Part shown: piece by piece, positions 2,492-9,290 of the stretch
Numbering within the stretch: position 1 is the first letter of the stretch
Layout: each line of letters begins with the position of its first letter
From: Nocardioides mangrovi
GTDB lineage: Bacteria > Actinomycetota > Actinomycetes > Propionibacteriales > Nocardioidaceae
NCBI RefSeq assembly: GCF_020073815.1
Contig: NZ_JAIQZJ010000004.1
Span: 1-64,000, forward strand
Direction: 5' to 3'
DNA length: 64,000 nt
Position numbers and translations under genes: made by a program
Notes under the pieces: model-generated
The model's input: only the letters and a program-made list of their open reading frames with translations
The model's database searches: none
Told to the model about the DNA's origin: nothing

Positions 2492-2565
2492 CGCCCGCGA
2501 TGGGCACGCTGGCTCCGGATCTCCTGACGGATATTGCGGAGCACCCGACAACCGAACACGCGATC

Positions 2566-5514
2566 ATGGACCCCGTGGCAGCACACACCAACGGGACCCT
2601 GGTCGGCCGAGACGCCGAGCTGACGGAGCTGTGCTCCCTGCTCGGCGTCTCTGCGTGGCCGGACCCCGACGGGTCGGCCGATCCGCCCGGGCTGGTGCTC
2701 CTCTCCGGCGACGCGGGCGTGGGCAAGACCCGGCTCCTGGTCGAGCTCCGGGACCGGGCCGTCGTCCACGGCTGGCAGGTCTTCGCGGGCCACTGCCTCG
2801 ACTTCGGTGACAGCGCGCTGCCCTACCTGCCCTTCTCCGAGGTGCTCGGGCGCCTCGCGACGGCCCTGCCCGAGGTGGTGGACCGGGTCGCCACGCAGTT
2901 CCCCGCCCTGACCCGGCTCCAGCCGGGCCGCCGGATGATGGGCGCCCGCTCCGAGGAGACCGGCGCCCTCGACCGCGCCGACCTCTTCGAGGCCGTGCAC
3001 ACCCTCCTCGAGGCGGCCGCCGAGTCCGCTCCGCTCCTGCTCGTCATCGAGGACACCCACTGGGCCGACCAGTCGACCCGCGACATGCTCAGCTTCCTCT
3101 TCTCCCGGCCGTTCGACGCCCCGGTGGCCGTGGTCGCGTCGTACCGCTCCGACGACCTGCACCGCCGTCACCCCCTCCGCCGCCAGGTCGCCGAGTGGTC
3201 GCGCCTGCGCGGCGTCCAGCGGCTGGCGCTCTCCCGGCTGCCCGACGAGGCGGTCCGCGCGCTCATCGCCGAGCTGGTCCCCGGCGGGCTCGCCGAGTCT
3301 GAGCTGAGCGACATCGTCGAGCGTGCCGAGGGCAACGCGTTCTTCGTCGAGGAGCTGACCAGTGCGGCCGCCGAGCCCGGCCGGTGGGTGCCGGCCGACC
3401 TCGCCGACGTGCTCCTCGTGCGGCTCGACCGGCTCGACGACGCGGCGCGGCAGGTGGTCCGCACCGCCAGCGTCTCCGGGCGCCGGGTCTCCCACGAGAT
3501 GCTGGCCGCGACCTCCGGCCTCGACGGTGCCGAGCTCGACGAGGGACTGCGCAAGGCCGTCGAGATGAACGTCCTGCTCGCCCAGGAGGAGCGCTACTCC
3601 TTCCGCCACGCCCTCCTCGGTGAGGCCGTCTACGACGACCTGCTGCCCGGCGAGCGGGTCCGGCTCCACGCGCAGTACGTCGAGGCGCTCCGCAGCGGGG
3701 CCGCCCGGGGCACGGCCGCCGAGCTCGCCCGCCACGCCCGGCTCGCGACCGACCTCGACACCGCGCTGACCGCGAGCATCCAGGCCGGCCGCGAGGCGTG
3801 GGACGTCGGCGGCCCCGACGAGGCGGCCTTCCACTACCAGCAGGCGCTCGAGCTGCTCAGCGACCCGCGCCGCTGCGAGCGCTCCGAGGTCGACGTCTCC
3901 AAGCTCGCCTCGAGCGCGGCCGAGGCGCTCAGCGAGAGCGGCGACCCGCAGCGCGCGGTGGCGCTGCTGCAGGAGCAGCTCGACCGGCTGCCCGCCGACG
4001 CGCCCCCCGAGTGGCGCTCGCGGATGCTCACCGCCCGCGCCGGGATCATGATCGTCGTCGACACCGACGAGGACGTCGCCGAGCTCTCCGCCGAGGCGCT
4101 CGCGCTCGCCCCCGAGGGCGAGAACCACTGGCGCGCCCGCGCCCTCACGACCCACGCCCGGGTGCTCGTCGGGATGGGCAGGTACGACGAGGCACAGGTC
4201 GTCGGCATGGAGGCGCTGGCGCTCTCCGAGCGGCTCGACCTCCACCAGCTCGCGTCCGAGTCGATCACCACGCTCTCCTCCCTCAAGAAGGCCGGCCCCA
4301 AGGAGGGCCTGCGCGCCGCGCTCGTCGACGCGGTCGCCCGCGCCGAGCAGGCCGACGCCGTGCACGCCGAGCTGCGGGCGCGCTTCCTGCTCGGCCGCTC
4401 CTTCGAGGACTGGGCGGAGTTCGACGACTCCGAGCGGTGGTTCCGCAGCGCGATGGACCGCGCCGCGCGGACCGGCCTGACCTGGGCGCCGTACGGCCTC
4501 GAGTCGCGGGTCCAGCTCACCTGGATCCTGTGGGTGCAGGGTCGCTGGGACGAGGTCCTCGAGCTCACCGACCTCGGCTCGGAGCAGCCCCCGCCGATCC
4601 CGCGGGCGCTGCTCGACGCGCTGCGGATGAGCGTCGAGCAGGGCCGCGGCGCCGACGTCCGGATGGCCGCGCGCAAGCTGCGCCGCTTCTGGGCGCGCGA
4701 GGGCGCCGTCGCCATCCACTCGGCGGCGCTGGAGATGGTGCAGGCCGGCCGTGAGGGCGACGCCGCCGGAGCGATCGCCGTCTACGACGACGTCGTCGGC
4801 GTGCTGGGTCGCACCTGGCACGAGTGGTTCAGCGCCCGGATCCGCTTCGGCGCCGTCGCCGTCGGCGCGGTCGCCCACGCGCTCCCGACCATGTCGGCCG
4901 CCGAGCGCGCGGCGTACCTCGCCCACGTCGAGCGGATCAGCGACGACGGCAACATCGTCGTGCAGCGCTACTCCGACCCGTCCGGCCACTGGGGTCCCGA
5001 GGGCCGCGCGTGGAAGAAGCGCCTCGACGCCGAGACCCTGCGCGTGCGCTGGCTGGTCGGCGTCGACGCGCCGCCGCAGGACGTCCTGGTCGGCACCTGG
5101 GCCGAGACGGTGACCTACTTCGAGGACTTCGGCCACGTCGGCGAACTGGCCCGGGTGCGGACGACGTACGCCGGCATCCTGCGCGCGGTCGGCGACACCG
5201 CCGGCGTCCGTGAGCAGGGCGACCTCGCCCGCGCGACCGCCCACGAGCTCGGCGCGCTGCCGCTGCTCGACGAGCTCAAGGCGGTCGGGTCGACCCCGGT
5301 CCGGTCGGAGTCGGCCCCCGACTCACTCACCCCGCGCGAGACCGAGATCCTCACGCTGGTGGCCGAGGGACGGTCCAACGGCGAGATCGGCAAGCAGCTC
5401 TTCATCAGCGCCAAGACCGTGTCGGTGCACGTCTCCAACATCCTCGGCAAGCTCGACGCCGCCGGTCGCACCGAGGCCGCCGCGATCGCCCGCCGCCGGG
5501 GGCTGATCGGCTGA
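2566..5514 (+). CDS. Large ATP-binding LuxR-family transcriptional regulator (LAL/MalT-like)
   Basis: About 982 residues. An N-terminal LVGRDAELTEL start of the AAA/STAND ATPase is followed by Walker A GDAGVGKTRLL near residue 47 and Walker B LLLVIEDTHWAD near 168. A long helical TPR-like middle follows, and a C-terminal LuxR DNA-binding domain (LTPRETEILTLVAEGRSNGE onward, last ~62 residues). Such proteins bind ATP and an inducer and activate nearby operons. I chose ATG 2566 because the conserved domain begins soon after; an in-frame ATG at 2500 would add 22 residues, and neither has a clear Shine-Dalgarno. The target is unknown; the cassette starting at 5600 is a plausible one (inference). 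Confidence 0.85.
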   Translation: MDPVAAHTNGTLVGRDAELTELCSLLGVSAWPDPDGSADPPGLVLLSGDAGVGKTRLLVELRDRAVVHGWQVFAGHCLDFGDSALPYLPFSEVLGRLATALPEVVDRVATQFPALTRLQPGRRMMGARSEETGALDRADLFEAVHTLLEAAAESAPLLLVIEDTHWADQSTRDMLSFLFSRPFDAPVAVVASYRSDDLHRRHPLRRQVAEWSRLRGVQRLALSRLPDEAVRALIAELVPGGLAESELSDIVERAEGNAFFVEELTSAAAEPGRWVPADLADVLLVRLDRLDDAARQVVRTASVSGRRVSHEMLAATSGLDGAELDEGLRKAVEMNVLLAQEERYSFRHALLGEAVYDDLLPGERVRLHAQYVEALRSGAARGTAAELARHARLATDLDTALTASIQAGREAWDVGGPDEAAFHYQQALELLSDPRRCERSEVDVSKLASSAAEALSESGDPQRAVALLQEQLDRLPADAPPEWRSRMLTARAGIMIVVDTDEDVAELSAEALALAPEGENHWRARALTTHARVLVGMGRYDEAQVVGMEALALSERLDLHQLASESITTLSSLKKAGPKEGLRAALVDAVARAEQADAVHAELRARFLLGRSFEDWAEFDDSERWFRSAMDRAARTGLTWAPYGLESRVQLTWILWVQGRWDEVLELTDLGSEQPPPIPRALLDALRMSVEQGRGADVRMAARKLRRFWAREGAVAIHSAALEMVQAGREGDAAGAIAVYDDVVGVLGRTWHEWFSARIRFGAVAVGAVAHALPTMSAAERAAYLAHVERISDDGNIVVQRYSDPSGHWGPEGRAWKKRLDAETLRVRWLVGVDAPPQDVLVGTWAETVTYFEDFGHVGELARVRTTYAGILRAVGDTAGVREQGDLARATAHELGALPLLDELKAVGSTPVRSESAPDSLTPRETEILTLVAEGRSNGEIGKQLFISAKTVSVHVSNILGKLDAAGRTEAAAIARRRGLIG

Positions 5515-5559
5515 CCCGCACTGTGTACGCCGGGGCGCCATGGGTACATGATCGGCACA

Positions 5560-5571
5560 TCACGTACGTGA
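5560..5571. promoter_or_regulatory. Perfect 12-bp palindrome TCACGTACGTGA
   Basis: A fully self-complementary 12-mer that ends 28 bp before the ATG of the Asp/Gly-repeat gene, in the 85-bp gap after the LuxR regulator. Its position fits an operator or activator site for the cassette. No known regulator is assigned from the sequence. Confidence 0.4.
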
Positions 5572-5599
5572 CATCCCCACGCGACCTCAGGAGGACCCG

Positions 5600-5872
5600 A
5601 TGGTGCCCGAAGAGCCCCTCAGCGACGACGACATGACCACCACCCCGACCGGGGACGCGGGCGGCCTCGGCGGCGACGCCGACGGCACCGACGGTGACGG
5701 CACGGACGGCCACGACGGCGACGCGTCGGACGGCGACGGCACCGATGGTGACGGGACCGACGGCGACTCCTCGGACGGTGACGGCACCGACGGCGACGGC
5801 ACCGACGGGGACTCCTCGGACGGTGACGGCACCGACGGTGACGGCACCGACGGCGACGGCACCGACGCCTGA
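5600..5872 (+). CDS. Asp/Gly-repeat acidic peptide, candidate modified or Ca-binding peptide
   Basis: A 90-residue protein with a strong ribosome-binding site (AGGAGG, 5 nt before ATG). After MVPEEPLSDDDMTTTPTG, residues 26-89 are almost entirely DGDGT and DGDSS pentapeptides. From residue 44 they form a 15-residue super-repeat (DGDGT, DGDGT, DGDSS) present twice, with a third copy ending DGDGT. By my count 30 of 90 residues are Asp; there is no Lys, Arg, Cys or aromatic residue, and no signal peptide. The stop is followed immediately by the GTG start of the cupin oxygenase, so the two are translationally coupled. The shape, a short leader plus repetitive core beside an oxygenase, resembles a substrate peptide; alternatively the D-x-D-x-x-D spacing could bind calcium. 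Function is unknown. Confidence 0.75.
   Translation: MVPEEPLSDDDMTTTPTGDAGGLGGDADGTDGDGTDGHDGDASDGDGTDGDGTDGDSSDGDGTDGDGTDGDSSDGDGTDGDGTDGDGTDA
5729..5863 (+). repeat. Tandem 15-bp / 45-bp repeat inside the Asp/Gly-repeat gene
   Basis: Nine 15-bp units coding DGDGT or DGDSS, in the order GT-GT-SS three times except that the last unit is GT. Synonymous differences between units (ggt/ggc, acc/acg) show they are not very recent perfect duplications. Confidence 0.85.
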
Positions 5873-6985
5873 GTGTCTGCACTCGACCTGCTGAGCGGTG
5901 ACGCCCAGACCTTCCTGACCAAGGTCTGGGCGTCACAGGTCCACCTGCACCGCACCGAGCCGGCCGACCTCGTCGACCTGCTCTCGCTCGAGGCCGCCGA
6001 CGAGCTGCTGACCTCGACGGCGATCCGCACGCCCGCGATCCGGATCGCGAAGGACGGGTCGGTGCTGCCGCAGTCGGCGTACACCCGCTCCGCCACCATC
6101 GCCGGCCAGTCCCTCACCGGGCTGGTCGACGCCCGCAAGGCGCTCGATCTCTTCGCGGACGGCGCGACCATCGTCTTCCAGGGCCTGCGCCGCTACTGGG
6201 CGCCCCTCACCGAGCTCATCTCGGAGCTCGAGCTGGAGCTGGGCCACCCCTGCCAGGCCAACGCCTACCTCACGCCGCCCGGCGCGCAGGGCTTCGCGGT
6301 CCACTCCGACTCCCACGACGTCTTCGTCTTCCAGACCGCGGGCTCCAAGCTCTGGGAGGTCCACGGCGACGACGGTCCCGAGGAGGTCCTGCTCGAGCCC
6401 GGCCTGTCGATGTACCTCCCCACCGGCACTCCGCACGCCGCCCGCGCGCAGGAGACGGTGTCGCTGCACGTCACCATCGGCATCAACCAGCTCACCTGGC
6501 GCGGCCTCGTCGAGCGCACCGTCGCGCCGGCGCTCCGGGCCGTCACCGACGAGCACCTCCCGGCCGGCTACCTCGACGACCCCGCGCTGCTCGCCGACCA
6601 GCTGGCCGACCGGCTCGAGGCGCTCGCGGGCGCCGTCCGCCGCACCGACCCGACCGCCGCCGTCGAGCGGGAGGTACGCCGCTTCCTCACTTCCCGCCCG
6701 CCCCGCCTGGCCGGTGGGCTGCACGACGTCCTCGGCACGGTCGAGGCCGACACCCGGCTGCGCCGCCGCCCCGGCCACCCGTGCGTGCTGCTCGACCGCG
6801 GCGAGCAGGTCGAGGTGCTGCTCGGCGACCGCTCGATGACCGTTCCGGCGTGGACCCGCCCGGCGCTGGACGAGGTCCGGGTGCGCGCCGACCTCACCCC
6901 CGCCGACCTGCCCCTCGACCCGCAGAGCAACCTCGTGCTCTGTCGTCGTCTGGTGCGCGAAGGATTGCTGGCGATCGTCTCGTGA
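5873..6985 (+). CDS. JmjC-like cupin oxygenase (Cupin_4 / ribosomal-oxygenase type)
   Basis: 370 residues, about the size of bacterial YcfD/RoxA ribosomal oxygenases, which are Fe(II)/2-oxoglutarate protein hydroxylases. Iron ligands are visible: H144-S-D146 in VHSDSHDVFVFQ and H188 in GTPHAARAQ. The HDVFVFQ context and the following SKLWEVH are typical of Cupin_4. The C-terminal ~150 residues form a helical and winged-helix-like tail. The GTG start directly abuts the stop of the Asp/Gly-repeat gene, with no ribosome-binding site of its own, so its translation likely depends on that gene. A 4-nt overlap joins it to the next gene. Its substrate may be a ribosomal protein, as for YcfD, or the neighbouring peptide; context favours considering the latter (inference). 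Confidence 0.85.
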   Translation: MSALDLLSGDAQTFLTKVWASQVHLHRTEPADLVDLLSLEAADELLTSTAIRTPAIRIAKDGSVLPQSAYTRSATIAGQSLTGLVDARKALDLFADGATIVFQGLRRYWAPLTELISELELELGHPCQANAYLTPPGAQGFAVHSDSHDVFVFQTAGSKLWEVHGDDGPEEVLLEPGLSMYLPTGTPHAARAQETVSLHVTIGINQLTWRGLVERTVAPALRAVTDEHLPAGYLDDPALLADQLADRLEALAGAVRRTDPTAAVEREVRRFLTSRPPRLAGGLHDVLGTVEADTRLRRRPGHPCVLLDRGEQVEVLLGDRSMTVPAWTRPALDEVRVRADLTPADLPLDPQSNLVLCRRLVREGLLAIVS

Positions 6986-7893
6986 CCCCTCCGTCGACGG
7001 CCTTCCGTTGCGCGGCCGAGAGCCTGTTGCGCGACGAGCCCGTGGTCGGCAGCGCCACCCACGTCCGTACCTGGCTGCTCCTCGAGCACACCGGACCGTG
7101 GGGGAGCACCGCCCTCCTCGACGCCCGGCTGCCCGAGGGCCTCGGCGCCGAGCTGCGCCGGCGTGCGCGCGAGCACCGCGCCAAGATCCTGCTGGTCCGA
7201 CGCTTCGACGCCAAGCCCGACGGCCACGGCCTCCGCGTCTTCGCCGCCCACGCGCACCCGACCCGGCCGCGCCTCGAGTCCGGCACCGTCGCCGATGCGC
7301 GGGACGTGCTCGACCTCGACCTCGGCGCACTCCGCGCCGGGGGGAGCAGCGGGCTCGCGCCGTACGACGGCTCGCTCTTCTGCGTGTGCACCAACGGCCG
7401 CCACGATGCGTGCTGCGCCGAGCGCGGCCGGCCGGTCGCGAAGGCGCTCAGCCAGGCGCACCCCGACGAGACCTGGGAGATCTCGCACGTCGGCGGCGAC
7501 CGCTTCGCGGCCAACATGGTGGTGCTGCCGCACGGCCTCTACTACGGCCGGCTCGACCCGCAGTCCGCGATCTCCGTCGCCGGCTCGCACCTCGCCGGCG
7601 AGCTCGACCTCGACCACCTGCGCGGCCGGTCCTCCCACCCGATGCCGGTGCAGGCCGCCGAGCACCACCTGCGCCGCGAGCTCGGGGTGACCCGGATGGC
7701 CGATGTCGCGTTGGTCGATCGTTCGAGCAACGGCGACACCACCACCGCCACGTTCGACGTCGCCGGCGCGACGTACGCCGTCCGGGTGCACGCCATCCAC
7801 GACCCCGCCGGCCCGGCGCTGCTCACCTGCAAGGCGAGCCGGGAGAGCCCGGTTCCCCGATTCGAGCTGGTGTGGTTGCGTAGGTCCTCGTGA
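6982..7893 (+). CDS. Sucrase/ferredoxin-like protein (thioredoxin-fold Fe-S type)
   Basis: 303 residues, GTG start overlapping the cupin stop by 4 nt. The cysteine cluster C134-x-C136 and C144-C145 within CVCTNGRHDACC, followed by AERGRPVAKAL, is the signature of the sucrase/ferredoxin-like family, a thioredoxin-fold group thought to bind a [2Fe-2S] cluster. A later HVGGDRFAANMVVLPHG stretch supplies further conserved His. It probably carries electrons. Next to an iron oxygenase it could reduce or reactivate the enzyme (inference). It overlaps the next gene by 4 nt, so all four genes 5600-9290 read as one transcription unit. Confidence 0.8.
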   Translation: MTPPSTAFRCAAESLLRDEPVVGSATHVRTWLLLEHTGPWGSTALLDARLPEGLGAELRRRAREHRAKILLVRRFDAKPDGHGLRVFAAHAHPTRPRLESGTVADARDVLDLDLGALRAGGSSGLAPYDGSLFCVCTNGRHDACCAERGRPVAKALSQAHPDETWEISHVGGDRFAANMVVLPHGLYYGRLDPQSAISVAGSHLAGELDLDHLRGRSSHPMPVQAAEHHLRRELGVTRMADVALVDRSSNGDTTTATFDVAGATYAVRVHAIHDPAGPALLTCKASRESPVPRFELVWLRRSS

Positions 7894-9290
7894 CCACCGC
7901 CACACCCGGCGCTGCCCCGCCCGACCTCGGCGCCCTCGCGGCCGCCCTGCCCGAGGGCGCGCTGGTCGCGGACGCGGACCGGATGGACAAGTACCGCTGG
8001 GACCGCGCCCACGACCCGGCCGCCGGGATGCCGCTCGCGGTGGTGCGAGCGACCTGCACCGAGGACGTGCAGGCCGCGGTGCGCTGGGCGGCGGCGTCCG
8101 GCGTCGGGGTGATCCCGCGCGGCGCCGGCACCGGACTCTCGGGCGGCGCCACCGCGCAGGCCGGCTGCCTCGTCGTCTCCACCGAGCGGATGACCGCGAT
8201 CGAGATCGACACCGCCACGCGGACCGCCACCGCCGAGCCGGGCGCCCTCAACATCGCGGTCAAGCGGGCCGCCGCCGAGCAGGGGCTCTGGTACCCGCCC
8301 GACCCCTCGTCGTACGAGATCTGCTCGATCGGCGGCAACGTCGCCACCAACGCCGGCGGCCTGTGCTGCGTCAAGTACGGCGTCACCACCGACTACGTCC
8401 TCGGTCTCACCGTCGTGCTCGCCGACGGGACGGCGGTCGAGCTCGGCGGGCCGCGTCTCAAGGACGCGGCCGGGCTGTCGCTGACCAAGCTCTTCGTCGG
8501 CAGCGAGGGGACGCTCGGCATCGTCACCCGGGTGCTGTTGCGGCTCGTGCCGGCACAGCGCGCGCCCTCGACGCTGGTCGCGACGTTCGGCTCGCTCGAC
8601 GACGCCATCGACACCGTCGTCGAGGTCAGCCGGCGGCTGCGGCCCTCGATGCTCGAGCTGATGGACCGCGCCTCGATCAACGCCACGGAGGACGCCCTCC
8701 GCATGGGGCTCGACCGCGACGCCGAGGCCCTGCTGCTCATGCAGAGCGACGAGCCCGCGCCCCGCGGAGCGGCGGAGATCGCCGAGATGGCCGCGGTGTG
8801 CGAGGCCCACCGCGCCCGCGAGGTGGTGACCACCGACGACCCCGAGGAGGCGGCTGCGTTCGTCGCGGCCCGCCGCATGGTGATCACCGCGATCGAGCCG
8901 CTCGGCTCGCTGCTGCTCGAGGACGTCGGCGTCCCGCTGCCGCGCCTGGGCGAGCTGGTGCGCGGCATCGAGAAGATCGCCGCCGCCCGCGACGTGCTGA
9001 TCGCCGTCGTCGCGCACGCCGGCGACGGCAACACCCACCCGCTCGTCGTCTACGACGCCGCGGACGTCGACCAGACCGCCCGCGCGAGCGCGGCGTACGC
9101 CGACATCATGGCGCTCGGAATCTCGCTCGGCGGCACCATCACCGGCGAGCACGGCGTCGGCCGGCTCAAGCGCCCGTGGCTCGGCGACCAGCTCGGCCCC
9201 GACGCGCTGGCCCTCAACCGCCGGATCAAGGACGCCCTGGACCCCCAGGGCATCCTCAACCCCGGCGCGGTCTTCGACCCCGCGGACTAG
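7890..9290 (+). CDS. FAD-linked oxidase of the GlcD / D-lactate dehydrogenase type
   Basis: 466 residues. An N-terminal PCMH-type FAD-binding domain carries GVIPRGAGTGLSGGA near residue 72, and SIGGNVATNAGGLCCVKYG near 148. The C-terminal FAD-oxidase domain carries HAGDGNTHP near 373 and TGEHGVGRLKRPWL near 418. It oxidises a 2-hydroxy acid such as glycolate or D-lactate to the 2-oxo acid; the exact substrate cannot be read. The GTG start overlaps the previous stop by 4 nt. Its stop shares the palindrome CTAG with the convergent SDR stop. Confidence 0.9.
   Translation: MTTATPGAAPPDLGALAAALPEGALVADADRMDKYRWDRAHDPAAGMPLAVVRATCTEDVQAAVRWAAASGVGVIPRGAGTGLSGGATAQAGCLVVSTERMTAIEIDTATRTATAEPGALNIAVKRAAAEQGLWYPPDPSSYEICSIGGNVATNAGGLCCVKYGVTTDYVLGLTVVLADGTAVELGGPRLKDAAGLSLTKLFVGSEGTLGIVTRVLLRLVPAQRAPSTLVATFGSLDDAIDTVVEVSRRLRPSMLELMDRASINATEDALRMGLDRDAEALLLMQSDEPAPRGAAEIAEMAAVCEAHRAREVVTTDDPEEAAAFVAARRMVITAIEPLGSLLLEDVGVPLPRLGELVRGIEKIAAARDVLIAVVAHAGDGNTHPLVVYDAADVDQTARASAAYADIMALGISLGGTITGEHGVGRLKRPWLGDQLGPDALALNRRIKDALDPQGILNPGAVFDPAD

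Follow-up and report, generated by a model that had tools for sequence, protein, structure and literature searches.

We analyzed a window of 64,000 nucleotides from Nocardioides mangrovi (assembly GCF_020073815.1; contig NZ_JAIQZJ010000004.1, positions 1 to 64,000, forward strand) and focused on three adjoining plus-strand genes, which encode an Asp/Gly repeat peptide, a JmjC_2 oxygenase and a Suc_Fer-like protein. The peptide gene (5600 to 5872; 90 amino acids, ATG start) ends in a TGA codon (5870 to 5872) that touches the GTG start of the oxygenase gene (5873 to 6985; 370 amino acids) with zero spacing, and the stop of the latter overlaps the GTG start of the Suc_Fer-like gene (6982 to 7893; 303 amino acids) by 4 nt. 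A preliminary description of the locus had already reported this abutting and overlapping arrangement, and the coordinates of the open reading frames (ORFs) and the Pfam matches confirmed it. The second gene had been named Cupin_4 in that account; its product indeed matches PF08007 (E = 2e-17; 63.3 bits versus a curated cut-off of 22), and it is the name that has to be replaced, since the family is now called JmjC_2 in Pfam. The third protein matches PF06999 (E = 1.2e-16; 61.8 bits versus a curated 34.9). The 90 residues of the peptide comprise 30 Asp, 26 Gly, 13 Thr and 6 Ser, as expected from the one-third Asp content first noted, and an Asp/Gly repeat is evident, although the exact DGDGT/DGDSS units described earlier gave way to a looser repeat. 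No Pfam or NCBIfam match to the peptide was obtained at E 0.001.

The association of such a peptide with the enzyme recurred in every genome set analyzed. Among 58 related genomes, 31 yielded a match to the JmjC protein, and an Asp-rich repeat ORF lay just upstream of the JmjC gene in all 30 loci returned from this set. Within the genus (37 genomes, including that of the window), 16 genomes carried the type found in the window, type A, 5 carried a more distant type B, 16 carried neither, and none carried both. A scan of named genomes (GTDB) confirmed at least 568 relatives of the enzyme, and the best 80 loci were read. In all 80, the JmjC gene is preceded by an ORF for an Asp-rich peptide (79 by an automatic filter, and L108 by frame reading), and 79 have a Suc_Fer gene downstream, the exception, L087, being a contig end. 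The gap between peptide and JmjC genes was negative in 28 of these loci, zero in 12, 1 to 20 nt in 28, 21 to 50 nt in 9 and more than 50 nt in 3.

Across the phylum, the enzyme profile matched 58 of 396 sampled genomes, the window's own included. Of the other 57, 52 were counted, while three in which the peptide is present (G449, G418 and G070) and two weak matches (G239 and G303) were left out; these 52 loci were read together with 8 type B relatives that also figure in the same-genus or related-genome counts, giving 60 loci in which the presence of the peptide was judged by the best Asp-rich ORF plus reading. At a profile score of at least 230, the peptide was present in 53 of 54 evaluable loci and Suc_Fer lay downstream in 48 of 55 (L193 and L197 have no upstream sequence and L196 has no downstream sequence), and at scores below 200 the peptide was found in 1 of 4 loci. 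The peptide counts of 30/30, 80/80 and 53/54 come from overlapping sets of loci. Of the 54 evaluable JmjC starts, 46 were preceded by an ORF containing 15% Asp or more, compared with 61 of 4000 random positions in the same 20-kb loci, a control that may itself take in true peptide sites, and the corresponding values for at least 20% Asp were 34 of 54 versus 25 of 4000; the 8 loci under 15% comprise seven long or Gly/Ala-rich peptides accepted by reading, plus L198, a locus without a peptide. When ORFs of at least 130 amino acids within 4.5 kb of 40 loci were clustered, with antisense frames set aside, JmjC was present in 40/40 loci and Suc_Fer in 32/40, and any other sense cluster occurred in at most 5 loci. 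Since the peptide and Suc_Fer recur at the 80 named loci and phylum-wide, the locus is not a local accident: a tiny operon consisting of an Asp-rich repeat peptide and an oxygenase, mostly with an iron-sulfur protein, is present in many actinobacteria. At these loci an encoded putative precursor stands beside a candidate modifying enzyme, which is one of the hallmarks of ribosomally synthesized and post-translationally modified peptides (RiPPs). The preliminary description had suggested searching for Cupin_4 genes with an Asp-rich ORF upstream and a PF06999-type gene downstream, and had named a cupin mostly devoid of the peptide in related genomes as counterevidence; the search recovered the proposed arrangement, and within this subfamily enzyme and peptide are nearly always paired.

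Comparison of the peptides revealed, in most members, a conserved N-terminal leader followed by a variable core. In the window, the leader motif LSDDDMTT spans residues 7 to 14 (5618 to 5641), and the core, with Asp-rich units DADGTD, DGDGTD and DGDSSD, spans residues 25 to 90 (5672 to 5869). The leader pattern L-x-D-[DESQ]-[DEM]-[MILV] was found in 79 of the 80 named peptides, the remaining one (L089) reading VSDEDITT; among the 79, a Thr or Ser that the pattern does not impose stands two residues beyond it in every case, and a Pro stands just before it in 72. The translated upstream flanks, 319,872 residues in total, contain no instance of the pattern with this Thr or Ser. For the 120 peptides sorted by class, of which 17 are B-like and 103 are A-like (that is, all peptides that are not B-like), a loose form of the pattern was present in 100 A-like and 8 B-like sequences, and reading revealed an acidic leader in 11 of the 17 B-like peptides. 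While the leader is conserved, the cores differ widely among loci: the A core is DADGTDGDATD, the B core is EGPADGG-x-PGxxDGGADGGA, and others include SADGTDQGVPGGTNGPRDA in L161 and the unit PTEDDENLDAPGEHSQDTGDE, present twice, in L180. In the 108 cores of the 120 that have the strict motif, Asp is the commonest residue (D 30%, G 24%, A 15%, T 14% and S 8%), and the residue following it is Gly in 49%, Ala in 29%, Ser in 12% and Thr in 5% of cases. Cys is absent from the last 45 residues of all 120 peptides.

The JmjC_2 enzyme retains the conserved residues of its oxygenase family. A PF08007 match was obtained for 30/30 family members (at E up to 1), and H144 (6302 to 6304), D146 (6308 to 6310), K159 (6347 to 6349) and H188 (6434 to 6436) are invariant in the alignment of 30, preserving the HxD...H iron triad together with K159, which we take to be the 2-oxoglutarate-binding lysine. 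A profile built from the 30 sequences matched NO66 (E = 3e-35), MINA53 (2e-27) and YcfD-type proteins (8e-13 or weaker). The structure was predicted with AlphaFold2 on a fused read-through construct of peptide plus enzyme, in which enzyme numbering equals fused numbering minus 91, and the enzyme part mostly reached a predicted local distance difference test (pLDDT) value above 90. This model aligned with NO66 over residues 88 to 461, nearly its whole length (Z 26.9; root mean square deviation 5.5 over 360 residues), followed by MINA53 (Z 24.6), YcfD (about 18) and FIH (Z 14.0). By predicted fold, the nearest solved relatives of the enzyme are protein hydroxylases, and the alignment with NO66 indicates a JmjC barrel with a C-terminal winged helix.

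The predicted winged-helix domain occupies residues 296 to 370 of the JmjC protein (6758 to 6982). A RiPP recognition element (RRE) binds the leader as an added strand. In fused numbering, the C-terminal elements of the model are a short strand (387-389), three strands (396-400, 403-407 and 412-416) and helices at 417-428, about 434 (short) and 441-453, which is the β3-α3 order of RREs plus one extra short strand before it, the criterion for this fold order being taken from PMC12710340.

The types of core were then compared with the relationships of the enzymes. When 92 enzymes were placed in a tree, the 20 rows with B-type cores required 2 changes versus a mean of 18.4 in shuffled data, and 0/500 shuffles were as low, a clustering that is inflated by near-copies among the enzymes. 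The B-type cores occupy a single part of the tree, and the A-type cores lie in a different part with 8 changes, mostly against 'other' rows (n = 20). Among these 'other' rows are the remote plasmid homologs and loci whose upstream DNA is missing, and at least one evident A-type peptide (L076) was overlooked by the sorting rule; the long branches of the plasmid homologs and some other rows make their placement uncertain. These data indicated that core types follow the enzyme tree.

The Suc_Fer-like protein was modeled with a pLDDT of 93.8 and is predicted to adopt a thioredoxin-like [2Fe-2S] ferredoxin fold, the best matches being Aquifex ferredoxin and Azotobacter FeSI at E values of 1.8e-3 to 5e-3 (none at or below 0.001) and target template modeling (TM) scores of 0.59 to 0.72. 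The candidate [2Fe-2S] ligands C136, H141, C144, C145, H169 and D173 are invariant in 47 rows, and the last position of an HxGGD motif is Asp in 112 of 114 pattern-matched frames from 140 loci. Among same-genus genomes without the JmjC gene, 3 of 15 gave a Suc_Fer match (the 16th, G015, was left out). A second Suc_Fer-like protein, with 37 to 42% identity to that of the window, was observed upstream in L044, L058, L066, L069-L073, L075, L077, L079-L081, L090, L105 and L109, where the match ends about 0.35 to 1.8 kb ahead of the JmjC start.

Near-obligate pairing, close spacing, a conserved leader set against variable cores and co-segregation with the enzyme tree argue strongly that the peptide is the substrate of the enzyme, which we hold to be very probable. 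Since the relatives of the enzyme are protein hydroxylases, H144, D146, K159 and H188 are conserved, Asp is the commonest core residue and Cys is lacking, we propose with moderate confidence that Asp residues of the core are β-hydroxylated. Our best reading is a minimal two- to three-gene RiPP-type system. The peptide would serve as a precursor in which a repetitive Asp-rich core follows an N-terminal motif (LxDDDMTT) for recognition; the leader would be held by the winged-helix (RRE-like) domain at the C-terminus of the JmjC_2 enzyme, and this enzyme would use Fe(II), O2 and 2-oxoglutarate to hydroxylate numerous aspartates of the core, with the β carbon as the likeliest site. The resulting peptide, with abundant β-hydroxyaspartate, could be a ligand of hard metal ions, for instance Fe(III), and the Suc_Fer-like protein would be a common redox partner, perhaps keeping the enzyme iron or the peptide-bound iron reduced. 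Taken as a whole, leader-guided repeated Asp β-hydroxylation appears fairly probable to us, while an iron-ligand or metal-binding role of the peptide and a reductase role of Suc_Fer are speculative. Docking of the leader on the winged-helix domain is weakly suggested by the fused model, in which leader residues 1 to 20 have a mean pLDDT of 63 to 68 and form a strand at 13 to 15, compared with values of 33 to 42 for the remainder of the peptide.

Several observations weigh against leader-guided hydroxylation. Regarding docking, the strand comes from a fused construct without coordinates, and the fusion itself may favor contact. Six of the 17 B-like peptides (L144-L147, L150 and L158) are leaderless, their repeat beginning almost directly; the leader is therefore not required everywhere, and the leader-plus-core layout put forward in the preliminary description holds for most members and fails for these six. 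L198 encodes an enzyme with a profile score of 249 and no peptide. The 80 named loci are almost all from Nocardioidaceae by title, which makes the counts from them non-independent. Neither a conserved protease nor a conserved exporter was found among the ORFs of at least 130 amino acids within 4.5 kb of the 40 clustered loci, and some RiPP clusters likewise have no protease gene, according to PMC12636437. Suc_Fer is absent beside the JmjC gene at 7 of 55 phylum-wide loci, and of these seven genomes three carry it elsewhere and four yielded none (one of them being only 81% complete). Because some genomes keep peptide and enzyme without any Suc_Fer match, these two make up the core of the system, to which Suc_Fer is often, though not universally, added. 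Finally, gene layout, conservation, conserved catalytic residues, predicted folds and the leader/core pattern are what the analysis shows, and the role of the peptide as substrate, its chemistry and the leader docking are deduced from these.

The alternative that survives best keeps the peptide as substrate and assigns it a different chemistry. Examples would be conversion to aminomalonate in two steps, a dehydrogenation or an oxidative cleavage of the backbone, for which Suc_Fer might supply electrons. There are precedents in two papers, as SmaO and SmaX convert Asp via β-hydroxyaspartate to aminomalonate in a RiPP pathway (PMC13097080) and HEXXH enzymes cleave the backbone (PMC12636437), and a frequent Suc_Fer redox partner hints at additional redox steps. 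However, four genomes retain peptide and enzyme with no Suc_Fer match, and the nearest enzyme folds are those of protein hydroxylases; we regard this chemistry as unlikely. If the peptide were instead an unmodified acidic metal-binding or buffering peptide, the JmjC enzyme would act on another protein, e.g., a ribosomal protein, as may be imagined from the ribosomal oxygenases that are its closest solved structures, and the D.DG.D pattern present in 93 of 103 A-like peptides would be in line with such a function. Yet this pattern occurs in 0 of 17 B-like peptides, and both the pairing and the co-segregation with the enzyme tree would be left unexplained, which makes this explanation improbable. 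EF-hand-like calcium loops were rejected as a general explanation, because the canonical spacing was found in 1 of 120 peptides (1/103 A-like and 0/17 B-like).

A role of the peptide as a translational leader (attenuator), in which its acidic stretch would stall or destabilize ribosomes and so control the JmjC gene, seems very improbable to us: the peptide ORF does lie directly before that gene, often touching or overlapping its start, but the conserved amino acid motif is N-terminal, away from the stop, the peptide ORFs reach 236 amino acids as listed (L030), and the distance to the JmjC start varies from overlap to more than 100 nt. An artefact, i.e., a spurious Asp/Gly frame in GC-rich repeat DNA, is scarcely credible, for although overlapping frames at the peptide are also open, conservation extends to the leader, the ribosome-binding site and the position, features that rarely or never arise at random positions or in flank frames.

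DNA upstream of the peptide start was aligned for 12 sequences. A promoter-like pair on the plus strand, TGTACG (5524 to 5529) and CATGAT (5547 to 5552) separated by 17 nt, starts 76 nt and ends 48 nt upstream of the peptide ATG; it is discernible in 8 of the 12 sequences including the window, with a variable spacer and single-base variants (TATACG in L036 and CAGGAT in L105), and the remaining 4 diverge. We infer a promoter function for this pair from its sequence. The ribosome-binding site AGGAGG (5589 to 5594, plus strand) lies 5 nt upstream of the ATG, and a GGAG-containing site precedes the peptide start in all 12. A perfect palindrome, TCACGTACGTGA (5560 to 5571), is located between the promoter-like pair and the ribosome-binding site and is absent from the 11 aligned relatives. 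Further upstream, separated from the peptide ORF by an 85-nt gap, a large AAA_16/LuxR-family regulator is encoded on the plus strand (2500 to 5514); in 38 of the 80 named loci a homolog is encoded no more than 6 kb from the JmjC gene, mostly upstream and in a few downstream, and the protein is a candidate regulator of the operon. On the other side, a gene for a flavin adenine dinucleotide-linked oxidase (7890 to 9290) overlaps the window's Suc_Fer gene by 4 nt. It was rejected as a part of the system, with a homolog near 2 of the 80 named loci only, 600 to 650 nt past Suc_Fer.

The window enzyme shares with NO66, MINA53 and YcfD the family PF08007, the whole-length fold with a C-terminal winged helix and the HxD...H triad, and differs from these proteins, which are ribosomal-protein hydroxylases by their entry titles, in its link to a short repeat peptide whose gene lies immediately upstream. 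RRE-like folds have been described in fish and algal PF08007 proteins by Bregman et al. in 2025 (PMC12710340), whose closest bacterial JmjC homologs, at about 30% identity, were placed in RiPP-like contexts; the modeled β3-α3 order makes our enzyme similar to those proteins, whereas an Asp-repeat precursor and a Suc_Fer partner are not mentioned in the accessible part of that account. Another JmjC-domain 2-oxoglutarate/Fe(II) oxygenase, BipG, acts in the RiPP pathway for biphenomycin (PMC12707348); the likeness to it is a proposed one, and BipG, unlike the window enzyme, is an ornithine hydroxylase inside a multienzyme cluster. Asp β-hydroxylation in RiPPs is carried out by SmaO, α-ketoglutarate-dependent HEXXH enzymes, a multinuclear nonheme iron-dependent oxidase and canonical α-ketoglutarate enzymes such as that of cinnamycin, and the accessible portions of the sources (PMC13097080 and PMC12636437) describe no JmjC_2 enzyme acting on Asp repeats, although the chemistry proposed here is the same. 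According to the latter source, Xia et al. reported in 2025 an α-ketoglutarate dioxygenase that macrocyclizes a RiPP precursor by a Cys-Tyr crosslink, which differs from the present case in that the cores here have no Cys. Like other Suc_Fer-like proteins, the third protein of the operon belongs to PF06999 and is predicted to have the ferredoxin fold described above. In most members it carries HxGGD and stands in an operon with peptide and JmjC genes, unlike yeast Apd1, presumably the best-known PF06999 member, to which we ascribe HxGGH.

In plasmid records, all matches had less than 60% identity to the window enzyme or one B-type enzyme, and 8 such distant loci were opened. Two of these JmjC_2 genes lie beside TfuA-like genes (one also beside YcaO), one is near a radical S-adenosylmethionine gene, one is behind a small Asp-rich ORF, and reading of the other 4 revealed nothing clearly RiPP-like. 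The surroundings of the first four are in line with the RiPP-type reading. The Asp-rich ORF (L202:4769-4915, Streptomyces clavuligerus plasmid; 48 amino acids) begins MDDKKTSLEPDEIEVI, contains SLEPDEIEVI and a DP-rich tail and precedes a JmjC_2 gene of 33% identity, with an S9 peptidase gene (opposite strand) and an ATP-binding cassette transporter gene as neighbors; this locus may represent a related system. The two loci with TfuA-like genes (L204 and L209) are on Streptomyces plasmids, and there JmjC_2 lies beside TfuA-like (in L204 also YcaO), methyltransferase and carbamoyltransferase genes, and a small ORF with MRTENTIEASEDLFDEAVPTTIAHE[SA]ASYTDE is found upstream in both.

The preliminary description knew of no named system with these three parts, and none emerged here: nine precursors (eight of the system and one Streptomyces ORF) belong to no Pfam or NCBIfam family, no description was found in the open-licence literature, with subscription journals being outside that search, and the accessible parts of PMC13118837, PMC2922099 and PMC13060819 do not describe it. 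RiPP pathways with JmjC enzymes are already known, as is Asp hydroxylation; the precursor family and the three-part operon were not found within the databases and literature searched.

Judged from sequence comparisons, the system appears to represent a widely distributed type of modified ribosomal peptide without a family name in the databases searched. If this is true, a large family would be added to the ribosomal peptides, with at least 568 enzyme relatives confirmed in the named-genome scan, and the JmjC_2 enzyme would have a dedicated short repetitive substrate, which would be useful for making multiply hydroxylated peptides. As a tentative possibility, relatives of NO66 and MINA53 may produce multi-β-hydroxyaspartyl chains throughout the phylum, which would serve as an intracellular ligand of iron or another hard metal, with Suc_Fer as the reductase. 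In that case, the winged helix of ribosomal oxygenases and a domain that binds peptide leaders would have a common ancestor, and these operons would offer a bacterial context for tracing the origin of that winged helix.

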